A stretch of 64,000 nucleotides of DNA from Pseudomonas sp. TH10. GTDB lineage: Bacteria > Pseudomonadota > Gammaproteobacteria > Pseudomonadales > Pseudomonadaceae. The position numbers were made by a program, and so were the translations under genes. The notes beneath the pieces were generated by a model. That model saw nothing but the letters and a program-made list of their open reading frames with translations. It was not told the origin of the DNA and searched no databases. Positions 3,040 to 7,431 of this stretch are shown piece by piece; position 1 is the first letter of the stretch, and every line of letters starts with the position of its first letter. The stretch is from contig NZ_JAEKEG010000104.1 of the NCBI RefSeq assembly GCF_016651255.1, positions 1 to 64,000 of the forward strand, written 5' to 3'.

Positions 3040-3974
3040 CTATAGCCGGAACACCAGCGCCTTCAGCCCACACTCGATATCAGCGTCTGGAAACTCCGGC
3101 GGGTTTTCCAGCCGCCGCTCGAACCGCAGGCTCGGCGCTTCCCGGGTGACGCCTTCGATGAGGAAGTCTGCACCGAATGCCGGGTCGTTCATGCAGGCCA
3201 GCACCGTGCCCTCGGCGCCCAGCAGCTCCGGGAGCCGACGCAGGACTCGCTGGTAATCCTTGGTCAGCAGGAAGCTGCCTTTCTGGAAGGACGGCGGGTC
3301 GATGATCACCAGGTCATAGGGCCCCTTGCCGATCACCTTGCCCCAGGACTTGAACAGGTCGTGCCCCAGGAACGTCACCTTGCCCAGGTCGTGCCCGTTG
3401 AGTCGGTGATTGTCGCGACCACGGCTCAGGGCCGCGCTGGACATGTCCAGGTTGACCACATGCTCGGCGCCGCCTTCGATTGCTGTCACGGAAAAGCCGC
3501 AAGTGTAGGCAAACAGATTGAGTACGCGCTTGCCCTGCGCATTGGCCCGCACCCAGTCGCGCCCGTAGCGCATATCGAGGAACAGGCCGTTGTTCTGCTT
3601 GCGGCCCAGGTCCACCCGATAGCGCAGGCCACCCTCGGTGATGGTCATGTCATCGATGGCGTCCCCACCAGCCATTCGGTGGTGCTTTGCGGCAGGTAGC
3701 GGTGCTGCAACGCGAGCGTATGTGCGCCGCATGCGACCCAGGCAGGCGAAGCGGCGAGCCGCAACAGGTCTGCCTTCAGCGCCTCCAATTGCGCCGCCTG
3801 CGGTTCCTTGAACAGCGACACCAGCACCACCCCCTGCAACCAGTCGACGGTCACTTGCTCCAGGCCCGGCCAGCAACGCCCACGGCCATGGAACAGCCGG
3901 CGGGTTTCGGCGGGGGCGTCTGCCAGGGCGGTCAGCAGATGGGCGTGGAGGAGGGCGAGCGCTTCTGGATTCAT
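3040..3974 (-). pseudogene. Class I SAM-dependent methyltransferase (RlmI/COG1092-like), frameshifted
   Basis: Expected product about 311 aa. The N-terminal part (MNPEALALLHAHLLTALADA ... QHRYLPQSTTEWLV) and the C-terminal part (GGDAIDDMTITEGGLRYRVD ... FRL) lie in different frames. They join at a CCCC run at 3663-3666 (plus strand), where five bases would restore the frame. The catalytic part shows the Rossmann motif VLNLFAYTCGFSVTA and DLVIIDPPSFQKGSF, with the DPPSF loop of RNA cytosine/purine methyltransferases of the RlmI/RlmK type. The exact substrate is not predictable. Convergent with the LuxR gene. A sequencing error is the likely cause of the break. Confidence 0.8.
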
Positions 3975-4143
3975 CGGCCTGGTTCGGTCATTTGAGGGGG
4001 CGGCATTTAACCACAACTTGGGCCAGCGCCTGCTTTCCGGGCGTCGGGAGTTATCACGTTTAATTTAACTTTCCGTGAGGATTTGGCGATCTGACGGCCC
4101 ACATACTCGGCTCCATCGAACACCAGTCGCCGGGAGAGCCACC

Positions 4144-4754
4144 ATGTTGCAGCAACCCTCGGTCAGCACACATCCGCGCTGGCTACGGCTGACTCACTGG
4201 CTCAATGCCTTGGCGGTGCTGGTGATGGTCGCCAGCGGCTGGCGCATCTACAACGCCTCCCCGCTCTACGATTTCAGTTTTCCTCCGTCGATCACCCTGG
4301 GCGGCTGGCTCGGCGGGGCGCTGCAATGGCATTTCGCGGCGATGTGGTTGCTGGTCATCAATGGCGTCATTTATCTACTGGTCAACCTCATCAGCGGGCG
4401 CCTGTCGCGACGGTTTTCCCCCTGTCGCCCAAGGGCATCCGGCACGACGTGCTGGCCGCGCTGCGAGGCAAGTTGGGGCATGCGGACCTGCGTCAGTACA
4501 ACCAGGTGCAGCGCCTTGCCTACCTGTTTGTGATGCTCGACATCGCGCTGCTGGTGGTTTCCGGGCTGGTGCTGTGGAAGTCCGTGCAGTTTCCGTTGTT
4601 GCGCGAGCTGCTGGGCGGCTACGAAGCGGCGCGGCACGTGCACTTTATTGCCATGGCGCTGTTGCTGGGGTTTGTCGCGGTGCACCTGGTGATGGTCGCG
4701 CTCGTCCCCAAAACCCTGGTTGCCATGCTATTTGGTCACAAGGAACCCTTATGA
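4144..4754 (+). pseudogene. Cytochrome b561-type membrane subunit (YedZ1-like), frameshifted
   Basis: Expected product about 203 aa with four membrane segments and haem-ligand type histidines: LTHWLNALAVLVMVASGWRI, LQWHFAAMWLLVINGVIYLL, RLAYLFVMLDIALLVVSGLV and HVHFIAMALLLGFVAVHLVM. The frame breaks at TTTT 4414-4417, where five T would join SRRF to FPLSPKGIRHDV. It starts behind GGAGAG and its stop overlaps the next ATG (ATGA), so it is translationally coupled to the molybdoprotein gene. Role inferred: quinol-linked electron donor to the periplasmic molybdoenzyme. Confidence 0.85.
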
Positions 4755-5536
4755 AAAAGCGCATTCAAGGACCCGGGCTGGATGAGGCGTCCATTCTCGC
4801 CGACGCTCGCAAAATCATCGCCCCGCAAATCGAAGACCCCTCGCGTCGCTCGTTTCTGTTGCGTGGCCTGACCCTCGGCGGGGTGGCGATGTTGTCCGGT
4901 TGCAACCTGACCGACAACGACAGCGTCGAGACCGCGTTGTCTTCGATGTCGCGCTTCAACGATCGGGTGCAGGGCTGGTTGTTCAACCCCAATGCACTGG
5001 CGCCTACCTATCCGGCGTCGATGATCACCCGGCCATTTCCGTTTAATGCCTTCTACGGCATCGACGAAGCACCGACCGTTGATGCCGACAGTTTCCGACT
5101 GGAAGTCACCGGCCTGGTCGCCGACAAACGCAGCTGGCGCCTGGAGGAACTGCGCGCCATGGCCCAGGCCGACCAGATCACCCGGCACATTTGCGTCGAA
5201 GGCTGGAGCGCGATCGGTCGCTGGGGCGGTGTGCCTTTCAGCGATTTCCTCAGGCGCATCGGCGCCGATACGCACGCCAGATACGTGGGCTTCAAATGCG
5301 CGGACGATTACTACACCAGCATCGACATGGCCACCGCGCTGCACCCGCAAACCCTGCTGGCGCTGACCTACGACGGCGCGGTGCTGCCGCGGGAGTACGG
5401 CTTCCCAATGAAGCTGCGCATGCCCACCAAGCTGGGCTACAAAAATCCCAAGCATATCCAGGCGATTTTCGTCAGTAACACCTACACCGGCGGCTACTGG
5501 GAAGACCAGGGTTACAACTGGTTCGGTGGCAGCTGA
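4751..5536 (+). CDS. Tat-exported molybdopterin oxidoreductase, sulfite-oxidase fold (YedY1/MsrP-like)
   Basis: 261 aa. The N-terminus carries a twin-arginine motif (SRRSFLLRG, Arg 32-33) followed by a hydrophobic stretch ending MLSGC. The molybdenum-pterin domain shows RHICVEGWSAIGRWGGVPF, where Cys148 is the expected Mo ligand, then VGFKCADDYYTSIDMATALH and LRMPTKLGYKNPKHI. The family includes MsrP/YedY, a periplasmic methionine sulfoxide reductase. It sits in an operon behind a cytochrome b and 71 nt ahead of a methionine-rich exported protein. This order supports a protein-methionine repair or oxidant-scavenging role, though the substrate is inferred. Confidence 0.9.
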   Translation: MKKRIQGPGLDEASILADARKIIAPQIEDPSRRSFLLRGLTLGGVAMLSGCNLTDNDSVETALSSMSRFNDRVQGWLFNPNALAPTYPASMITRPFPFNAFYGIDEAPTVDADSFRLEVTGLVADKRSWRLEELRAMAQADQITRHICVEGWSAIGRWGGVPFSDFLRRIGADTHARYVGFKCADDYYTSIDMATALHPQTLLALTYDGAVLPREYGFPMKLRMPTKLGYKNPKHIQAIFVSNTYTGGYWEDQGYNWFGGS

Positions 5537-5607
5537 CCGACATCCGCCAGGTTCATCCGCGCAGCCCGTGTTGCGCACATTCGCACCTCAGCTCCAGGAG
5601 ATTCATC

Positions 5608-5889
5608 ATGAAAAAACTGACCAGCATTGCCCTGTCCCTGTGCCTCGCAGCAGGGGCCGCCAGCGTGTTCGCCGCCGATACCATGAGTCAGGAAGGCATG
5701 AGCAAGGACTCGATGTCCAGGGACGCGATGAAAAAAGACTCGATGAACAAAGACAGCATGAGCAAGGACGCCGTGAAGCAGGACAGCATGTCCAAGGACG
5801 GGATGAAAAAGGACAGCATGTCCAAAGACGGGATGAAAAAGGACGCAATGTCCAAAGACGCCATGAAAAAGGACGACATGGCCAAGTGA
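5608..5889 (+). CDS. Pentapeptide MXKDX repeat protein (methionine-rich, MrpX-like)
   Basis: 93 aa. A signal peptide (MKKLTSIALSLCLAAGAASV, cleavage expected near A22) is followed by about 71 residues made of repeats of the type MSKDS/MKKDA. The mature part has 13 Met, many Lys and Asp, no Cys and no aromatic residue. One repeat has Val in place of Met (AVKQD). It matches the MXKDX repeat family. Placement after a YedY-like molybdoenzyme and cytochrome b parallels Azospira MrpX, a sacrificial methionine-rich peptide that scavenges hypochlorite and is re-reduced by YedY1. The start follows AGGAG. Confidence 0.9.
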   Translation: MKKLTSIALSLCLAAGAASVFAADTMSQEGMSKDSMSRDAMKKDSMNKDSMSKDAVKQDSMSKDGMKKDSMSKDGMKKDAMSKDAMKKDDMAK

Positions 5890-6031: not shown

Positions 6032-6442
6032 ATGAGTCCAGTCACAACGGCAAACGATCACCTTCCCGACGGGTTGATTCTTGTGGTCGAGGATGATCCG
6101 TTGATCCTGGAGTTTCTCTGCGAAATTCTTCAGGACGAAGGTTTTACCGTTGAACCCCAGATCAGTGCGGACGCTGCAGTGGTCTATCTGGAGCAGCACT
6201 GCGACAAGGTCAGTTTGTTGCTGACCGATATCACCATGCCCGGCACCCTCAACGGCGCCGACCTGGCGAATCTGGTCGGCGATCGCTGGCCGGACAAGCC
6301 GATCATGATCATGTCAGGGTTCGAAACGCCGGAGACTTCCGGGGTCCGGCACGACGTTTCTTTCATCAAGAAACCCTGGGCGCTCGGGCAATTGCTCGAT
6401 TGCGTTGAAGGGGCGCTGAAGAAAGCCCCGGTGCAACGTTGA
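6032..6442 (+). CDS. Single-domain response regulator receiver protein
   Basis: 136 aa and a receiver domain only. It has the acidic pair in ILVVEDDPLILEFL, the phospho-acceptor Asp in SLLLTDITMPG, the conserved Ser in IMIMSGFETPE and the Lys in VSFIKKPWALGQLL. There is no output domain. No histidine kinase is adjacent, so it probably acts by protein interaction or phospho-relay with a kinase elsewhere. ATG at 6032; ribosome site weak (GGGAG upstream). Confidence 0.9.
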   Translation: MSPVTTANDHLPDGLILVVEDDPLILEFLCEILQDEGFTVEPQISADAAVVYLEQHCDKVSLLLTDITMPGTLNGADLANLVGDRWPDKPIMIMSGFETPETSGVRHDVSFIKKPWALGQLLDCVEGALKKAPVQR

Positions 6443-7162: not shown

Positions 7163-7192
7163 GACAACTCCGCCGGTATGGGCTGCCGCAAG

Positions 7193-7403
7193 CTGCGTTA
7201 ACAACTGCGTCCGTAGGAGCTGCGGCAGGCTGCGTTAACAACTGCGTCCGTAGGAGCTGCGGCAGGCTGCGTTAACAACTGCGTCCGTAGGAGCTGCCGC
7301 AGGCTGCGATCTTTTGATCTTCAGCAATTACGAAAAATCAAAAGATCGCAGCCTTCGGCAGCTCCTACAGAATCAAAAGATCGCAGCCTTTGGCAGCTCC
7401 TAC
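7193..7403. repeat. 37-bp tandem array fused to an inverted REP (family B)
   Basis: A 37-nt unit beginning CTGCGTTAACAACTGCGTCC occurs three times in tandem (7193, 7230, 7267). It runs into GTAGGAGCTGCCGCAGGCTG then CGATCTTTTGAT. Two inverted copies of that REP arm follow (about 7340-7369 and 7374-7403). The whole block would form a large alternative hairpin between the HAD gene and the convergent DUF2388 gene. Confidence 0.9.
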
Positions 7404-7431
7404 GGGGAGCTGCAGGACGTGTCGGGCTGGC

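Follow-up and report, generated by a model that had tools for sequence, protein, structure and literature searches.

We describe a three-gene operon of Pseudomonas sp. TH10 that encodes a b561-type cytochrome b, an MsrP/YedY-like molybdoenzyme and a methionine-rich MXKDX repeat protein. It lies at positions 4144–5889 of a 64,000-nucleotide stretch of DNA, here called the window, on contig C104 of a host genome (G000) that is 78% complete and distributed over 179 contigs. We consider it likely that this is an envelope methionine-redox operon of the kind controlled by the OrhK/OrhR two-component system of Escherichia coli, with a regulator that is encoded elsewhere in the genome and shared with an operon for exported MsrB and MsrA. 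The gene order, the coordinates and the composition of the MXKDX protein given in a preliminary description of this DNA were confirmed by recount; the promoter element at 4051–4081, the lipobox of the enzyme and a frameshift in the cytochrome gene had escaped it.

A shared operator and an OrhR-type regulator

Comparison of the upstream regions of relatives revealed a conserved block, TTATCACN7TTAACTN3CGTGAGGA, at 4051–4081 (plus strand), before the cytochrome gene. This putative OrhR-type operator (TTATCACG...TTAACT...CGTGAGGA) contains the inverted repeat TCACG-N15-CGTGA at 4054–4078, which is the only TCAC[AG]-N15-[CT]GTGA sequence in the 64-kb window, and a -10-like hexamer of a predicted promoter, CATACT, follows 20 nucleotides 3' of it at 4102–4107 (plus strand). 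A whole-genome search showed that the operator is present twice in the host genome, with the second copy at G000:C59:34415–34445. This copy is flanked on one side by a divergent gene pair for an OmpR-type regulator and its kinase, and on the other by an operon that encodes a twin-arginine MsrB (SelR) together with an exported MsrA (PMSR). Counted with the next 10 nucleotides, the two operators agree at 35 of 41 positions; the msrB promoter carries a -10-like TAGGCT at the same 20-nucleotide spacing. A generic sigma-70 scan gave no match at the hexamer 4102–4107, as may be expected because the promoter would be activator-dependent; generic promoter and terminator scanning otherwise returned nothing useful. 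Readings of the upstream region by eye as an extracytoplasmic function (ECF)-type promoter (GTAAC...CGAA-like, with AlgU-like spacing) were dropped, since the element recurs before msrB.

The operator was then counted, allowing at most two mismatches, in 149 Pseudomonas genomes; all co-occurrence figures for this set are raw genome counts, uncorrected for kinship. It was found at 66 sites in 46 genomes, and a reversed control pattern gave 0 sites in any of the 149. The genes 3' of these operators were cytochrome b–yedY–MXKDX in 20 cases, MXKDX–msrA in one, and msrB, ccdA and msrA in some combination in 44, with no such downstream gene identified at a single site (G140, on the short locus L147). 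An OrhR-type regulator (E <= 1e-70) is encoded in 51 of the genomes: all 46 operator-bearing genomes have it, and the operator is absent from every genome that lacks it (0/98). Relatives of the enzyme (E <= 1e-20) occur in 41 genomes and were split at 65% identity into group A (at least 65%, 24 genomes) and group B (60–64%, 19 genomes), with two genomes in both and with G121, G079 (each 65%) and G043 (64%) as borderline assignments. The regulator accompanies the MXKDX gene in 24 of 24 genomes and the group-A enzyme likewise in 24 of 24, against 27 of the 125 other genomes; it shows no association with the group-B enzyme (7/19 versus 44/130). The 31-bp operator thus predicts a small envelope methionine-repair regulon in approximately one-third (46/149) of the Pseudomonas genomes sampled.

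The host genome encodes orthologs of both OrhR and OrhK on contig C59: the response regulator (PF00072/PF00486) shares 59% identity with OrhR from E. coli ABU 83972, and the gene beside it, frameshifted as sequenced, encodes the kinase (PF00512/PF02518, domains assigned from an intact relative). In uropathogenic E. coli, OrhR (C3565) is reported to directly activate c3566–c3568, which encode a cytochrome b, an MsrP-like enzyme and a Met-rich peptide, in response to hydrogen peroxide (H2O2); it binds a fragment with the promoter in electrophoretic mobility shift assays, and an inverted repeat, TCACA-N15-TGTGA, lies just upstream of the -35 box (PMC8550376). The Pseudomonas operator had been found from sequence before this repeat was known to the analysis. 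The window operon has the same three genes in the same order as those under OrhK/OrhR (C3564/C3565) and the same inverted-repeat layout upstream (TCACA-N15-TGTGA in E. coli, TCACG-N15-CGTGA in the window); the repeat reads TCACATTTTTTTTAAACTCTTGTGA in the E. coli ABU 83972 copy (L365) and TCACGTTTAATTTAACTTTCCGTGA in the window. Besides the regulator, the enzyme is 60% identical to that copy, the cytochrome of a relative is 54% identical, and an intact Pseudomonas kinase of the group is 42% identical to OrhK. On the strength of these identities and the shared repeat layout, we assign the window operon to the OrhKR kind. It differs from the E. coli system in that the latter's two-component genes are divergent and adjacent, whereas those of the host lie on another contig, next to the exported MsrB–MsrA operon with the same operator (none was found in the flank of the operon within the window), and in that no haemolysin genes lie 3' of the window operon. 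Because its two-component genes are unlinked, we regard it as a variant of that kind.

Several other characterized systems are comparable in part. BcrXQP of Brucella melitensis (BcrS-AbcS), which is induced by HOCl and contributes to HOCl resistance, likewise joins an MXKDX protein to an MsrPQ-like pair but is under ECF sigma/anti-sigma control and has the gene order X-Q-P (PMC8315932). The SigF/NrsF-YedY1/YedZ1-MrpX system of Azospira suillum PS also combines a Met-rich periplasmic peptide with a quinol-linked YedYZ-type reductase (PMC4623255, PMC5748585), and exported msrA/msrB genes lie beside sigF/nrsF-yedYZ-mrpX in two perchlorate islands (PMC4623255). As in the Azospira and Brucella types, a TIGR02953 MXKDX peptide (123.5 bits, cut-off 41) is encoded next to a YedY-like gene in the window; the comparison with Azospira is by description rather than by sequence, and its SigF/NrsF control has no counterpart near the window operon or detected in the host genome. 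MsrPQ/HprRS of E. coli K-12 resembles the window system in its sulfite-oxidase-fold reductase, membrane haem partner and two-component control (PMC10151825). The window enzyme differs in its score against the MsrP equivalog NF003767 (77.2 bits, below the cut-off of 207), in its lipobox, in its PF01292 partner and in a different regulator and operator. The family of MsrQ, by contrast, is presumably PF01794. Genes annotated as MsrP/MsrQ were raised in a Pseudomonas facing Fusarium, the consulted part of that report leaving unstated which pair is meant (PMC13106123).

The role of MXKDX proteins in Pseudomonas, initially thought to be little described, therefore has close parallels, as c3566–c3568 of uropathogenic E. 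coli and bcrXQP of Brucella are of the same kind (PMC8550376, PMC8315932). In the titles and abstract openings of open-licence literature, we found no description of an OrhR-type site before exported MsrB/MsrA genes, nor of this operon in Pseudomonas; an exchange of OrhKR for SigF/NrsF likewise did not turn up in the literature searched. The module is of a known kind and the two-operon regulon looks new. The comparison brings together two bodies of literature in which one effector module is placed under different control, the first concerned with SigF/NrsF-MrpX and BcrXQP and the second with OrhKR-c3566–c3568 of uropathogenic E. coli, and it makes questions of sensing and substrate testable in harmless soil bacteria.

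Proposed pathway and the oxidant

In the pathway we propose, a periplasmic oxidant would be sensed by the OrhK-type kinase encoded on G000:C59, which would phosphorylate the OrhR-type regulator of the OmpR family; the phosphorylated regulator would then bind the inverted repeat at 4051–4081 and activate the cytochrome b–molybdoenzyme–MXKDX operon. The exported MXKDX protein would be sacrificially oxidised at its methionines, while the cytochrome would hand quinol electrons to the molybdoenzyme, a predicted Tat-exported (twin-arginine translocation) lipoprotein held at a membrane, for the reduction of methionine sulfoxide in the MXKDX peptide and possibly in further proteins of the envelope. 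This regulator would also drive the exported MsrB–MsrA operon, which in many relatives also encodes a CcdA/DsbD-like protein, via its second site, and molybdoenzyme-based and thiol-based repair would thereby rise together. A module of this sort—that is, a quinol-linked cytochrome feeding an exported enzyme that repairs a sacrificial peptide—had been suggested in the preliminary description, and the idea stands in part: the unit is conserved and the Msr/CcdA neighbours in some relatives point to methionine-sulfoxide chemistry, but the cytochrome donor is broken as sequenced.

The accompanying label of hypochlorite scavenging is unproven, and we give slightly less than an even chance to the alternative that the stress is peroxide or general envelope oxidation instead of hypochlorite, with the MXKDX protein as an accessory substrate of what is chiefly a protein-repair operon. 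The E. coli OrhKR counterpart is activated by H2O2, mutants deleted for c3566 or c3567 grow less well in tert-butyl hydroperoxide, and its authors set this peroxide role against the chlorine protection afforded by MsrPQ (PMC8550376); the oxidants tried on that system were peroxides. Moreover, some genomes have the cytochrome/enzyme pair but no MXKDX gene, including all nine group-B neighbourhoods read, where the pair is found with another OmpR-type two-component system; because of this, the pair must have other substrates in those genomes. Against this alternative, the Azospira and Brucella MXKDX modules are tied to hypochlorite (PMC5748585, PMC8315932), and yedY is listed by a review among the genes raised in P. 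fluorescens biofilms under NaClO, the consulted text leaving unsaid which yedY (PMC7464077). The MXKDX gene is also found without the molybdoenzyme next to msrA (L106) or to msrB/ccdA/msrA (L268), which fits a role of its own as a reductase substrate. Locus L268 (11 kb) encodes SigF/NrsF, MXKDX, MsrB, a DsbD-like protein and MsrA, a gene set indicating that the peptide also goes with thiol-type reductases, and in G023, the only MXKDX-bearing Pseudomonas genome lacking a group-A pair, the MXKDX gene occurs with the regulator and an exported MsrA. Hypochlorite scavenging by the window operon is plausible.

The kinases themselves offer a hint as to what is sensed. In an alignment of 48 OrhK-type kinases, to which certain genomes contribute partial or duplicate copies, 47 share a periplasmic Met (Met76 in the numbering of the G121 protein) and 41 a Cys within the first membrane helix (Cys20 in that numbering); the E. 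coli OrhK copy has equivalents of both. HprS senses the oxidant through two periplasmic Met residues, and a membrane Cys is important for its signalling (PMC10151825). Given this precedent and the conservation of Met76 and Cys20, it is a reasonable guess that OrhK-type kinases sense methionine oxidation directly.

The gene products and the cytochrome frameshift

The cytochrome b, molybdoenzyme and MXKDX genes are a real conserved unit. Among the 149 Pseudomonas genomes, the MXKDX protein scores above cut-off in 24, and in 23 of these its gene adjoins the cytochrome/enzyme pair, more often than chance would give; viewed from the enzyme, 23 of the 24 group-A genomes have an adjacent MXKDX gene, the exception being G019. 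In the window, the cytochrome gene occupies 4144–4754, the molybdoenzyme gene 4751–5536 and the MXKDX gene 5608–5889, all on the plus strand, and the start of the second overlaps the stop of the first (ATGA). The gene content expected of an OrhKR-type module is present, with the cytochrome frameshifted as sequenced, and co-transcription is predicted from the sequence.

The molybdoenzyme scores 108 bits against PF00174 and carries a twin-arginine motif (SRRSFLLRG) and, after it, a lipobox (LSGC). RR32–33, the lipobox Cys51 and the predicted molybdenum ligand Cys148 are invariant in 15 of 15 aligned sequences, the window copy included. The conservation of RR32–33 and Cys51 suggests that the enzyme should be a Tat-exported lipoprotein, and the earlier assignments of a sulfite-oxidase fold, Tat export and Cys148 as the molybdenum ligand agree with these sequence features. 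Among solved structures, profile comparison ranks 1xdq first (E 5e-25), an entry for a bacterial sulfite oxidase that we take to be E. coli YedY. A second PF00174 gene of the host genome (on contig C15) was considered as a canonical MsrP and set aside, as it has the look, by eye, of a SorA/SoxC-type sulfite dehydrogenase. In group-B loci (L108 8599–9210, minus strand, and similar loci), a secreted-looking protein of approximately 203 aa, for which no Pfam match was found, is encoded between the other OmpR-type two-component system and the cytochrome/enzyme pair.

The cytochrome, the putative membrane electron donor, matches PF01292 in both of its halves, which are in different frames: the open reading frame at 4144–4533 leaves the frame near 4412–4423, and the remainder continues in the frame of 4326–4754. 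The shift falls near residue 91, and by hydropathy the last two membrane helices are lost as sequenced. It is unlikely, in our judgement, that the frameshift is real and marks a decaying locus whose module is being lost in the source lineage. The T/C run at approximately 4412–4423 is indeed one base shorter than in all 23 aligned relatives, as such decay would have it. However, 3' of the indel, substitutions relative to the nearest relative are distributed 3:0:24 over codon positions 1:2:3, and relative to three more distant relatives 25:10:46, 18:6:37 and 19:10:30; the first pattern points to selection on the second half of the cytochrome until very recently. Single-base changes also affect other genes of this fragmented genome: a SAM-dependent methyltransferase gene at 3040–4016 (minus strand) is broken, its C run at 3666 lacking one base that the nearest genome has, and the OrhK-type kinase gene on C59 (L138 2138–3653, minus strand) lies in two overlapping frames, with one extra base relative to its nearest relative. 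These changes suggest assembly errors, and the aligned parts of the window, coding and non-coding together, show 46 missing and 32 extra bases as one-base gaps relative to the nearest genome. We therefore regard the cytochrome frameshift as probably either an error of assembly or a change of very recent date.

The MXKDX protein is a 93-aa exported pentapeptide repeat protein (TIGR02953). Cleavage after residue 22 would leave a mature peptide of 71 aa with 13 Met, 16 Lys and 14 Asp and without Cys, Phe, Trp or Tyr; we propose it as a sacrificial methionine sink. Very unlikely, to our mind, is a role as a cation or metal binder, or as a secreted structural repeat protein with no part in methionine oxidation. 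The repeat is rich in Lys, Asp and Met, Met-rich proteins are able to bind copper, and the sole Pfam match, to Extensin_1, is weak and compositional; such a role would leave aside the linkage of MXKDX genes to two forms of methionine-sulfoxide-type enzymes (the molybdoenzyme and MsrA/MsrB/CcdA) and to two regulators that answer oxidants in other bacteria.

Regulators of the module beyond Pseudomonas

Of 398 genomes of the phylum, 35 encode an MXKDX protein above cut-off and 76 encode a relative of the enzyme (E <= 1e-30). We compared regulation across 134 deduplicated loci, each of at least 3300 bases and encoding an enzyme of at least 250 bits together with a cytochrome; thresholds were 355 bits for the OrhR type, 60 and 150 bits for NrsF and SigF, respectively, and at most three mismatches for the site. 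Most of these loci come from the 80 most similar named ones among the matches listed, none of which is from Azospira, and from loci picked by neighbourhood, so that they are not a random sample. Loci were dropped where no right-strand cytochrome was found or where the locus was otherwise not retained (including L089, which bears the site), where the enzyme scored below 250 bits, where the locus was shorter than 3300 bases, or where the enzyme DNA was a duplicate. Some loci counted here as having no linked regulator would be classed otherwise with looser marks (L301 as SigF/NrsF, L287 as two-component).

Where an OrhR-type regulator is linked, the site stands before the cytochrome in 23 of 28 loci; the corresponding figures are 0 of 27 for linked SigF/NrsF, 0 of 19 for another OmpR-type system and 26 of 60 for no linked regulator, and 23 of those last 26 are from Pseudomonas, the window's own locus among them. 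This tally counts L095 as site-less despite its perfect site, an error that is corrected by counting sites anywhere in the locus (24/28, 0/27, 0/19 and 28/60, respectively). The loci with a linked regulator include members of the Enterobacterales (Buttiauxella, Rahnella, Serratia, Ewingella and Enterobacter) and Burkholderiales (Variovorax and Pigmentiphaga), and the two-component genes adjoin the operon in relatives such as L101–L103, L244–L246 and L364. Genes for exported MsrA, MsrB or CcdA-like proteins adjoin the module in L101–L103, L248, L287, L295, L299, L301 and some further loci. When loci without a linked regulator are left out, the type of regulator changes at least six times on a quick tree built from 125 enzymes.

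Across Pseudomonadota, the same effector module appears to be under either an OrhKR-type two-component system or SigF/NrsF, an exchange that looks new. A wider proposal, for and against which we see the balance as even, is that the OrhKR-type system of Pseudomonas is a dedicated envelope methionine-redox regulator, sensing oxidation through Met76 and Cys20 and commanding through one operator two chemically distinct repair routes, a quinol-fed lipoprotein molybdoenzyme with its sacrificial MXKDX sink and a thiol-fed exported MsrB/MsrA/CcdA route, and that the module has been rewired between two-component and SigF/NrsF control across the phylum.

The window operon might instead be controlled in the Azospira and Brucella manner, by a SigF-like ECF sigma factor with its NrsF anti-sigma factor, both encoded at another place in the genome. 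This arrangement is established for those bacteria (PMC8315932, PMC5748585, PMC4623255), and homologous modules lie beside SigF/NrsF in 27 of the 134 loci, but it is disfavoured here to the point of being highly improbable. NrsF (PF06532) has 0 matches in the 78%-complete host genome and no association with the module across the genus (4/24 module genomes versus 20/125 others), and the OrhR-type site, absent from all 27 SigF/NrsF-linked loci, is present in the window; the remark in the preliminary description that no SigF/NrsF pair lies nearby and that control may differ from the Azospira case was thus borne out, with the OrhR-type operator favoured. In L063 (1501–3229), moreover, the one Pseudomonas NrsF locus that was read closely, the genes for NrsF and a SigF-like ECF factor adjoin a gene for a small secreted protein, which we take to be DUF2282-like, and not an MXKDX gene.

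Several observations weigh against OrhKR-type control of the window operon, the reading we prefer. No site was found in 5 of the 51 regulator-bearing Pseudomonas genomes (G006, G044, G070, G079 and G141), of which G079 is enzyme-bearing and has no site anywhere; in G119, G019 and G121, a site precedes msrB or ccdA, but the best match before the cytochrome has six to nine mismatches. Among the 28 loci to which an OrhR-type regulator is linked, four lack a site within three mismatches anywhere (the best having 4, 4, 4 and 5), and a tree-based pair test of operator against regulator had only two to four independent pairs and thus no power. Of the 134 loci, 22 have an Msr or CcdA-like gene next to the module and 112 do not. 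Finally, activity in the source strain is not assured, because the cytochrome and kinase genes are both frameshifted as sequenced.

The unit is also found on plasmids. In L362 (E. coli VR50 plasmid pVR50B, 4058–8040), an IncF conjugative plasmid carries the whole unit between IS26 copies: kinase, regulator, operator (two mismatches), cytochrome, lipobox enzyme and Met-rich peptide. The stretch from regulator to peptide in this version occurs in 73 of 5426 complete E. coli genomes, at 76 places, all on plasmids; a search of complete E. coli genomes at lower identity found the unit or a version approximately 74% identical in 351 genomes, at 292 chromosomal and 75 plasmid places. A Rahnella megaplasmid (L364) carries the module with the two-component system and the operator (one mismatch), and a Yersinia ruckeri plasmid (L363) carries the cytochrome, enzyme and MXKDX genes between IS6-family elements, with no two-component system annotated in the stretch and no site. 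Because the unit resides on Enterobacterales plasmids, conjugative ones included, its oxidant specificity is worth knowing.

Just 3' of the module in the window, a stand-alone receiver-domain protein is encoded at 6032–6442 (plus strand; PF00072 only), as it is beside the module in some relatives only; it was considered as the regulator of the operon and set aside, as Pfam gives no output domain. Further downstream, at approximately 7170–7410, several near-identical GTAGGAGCTGC..GCAGGCTGCG stretches occur in both orientations and resemble, by eye, Pseudomonas intergenic repeats.

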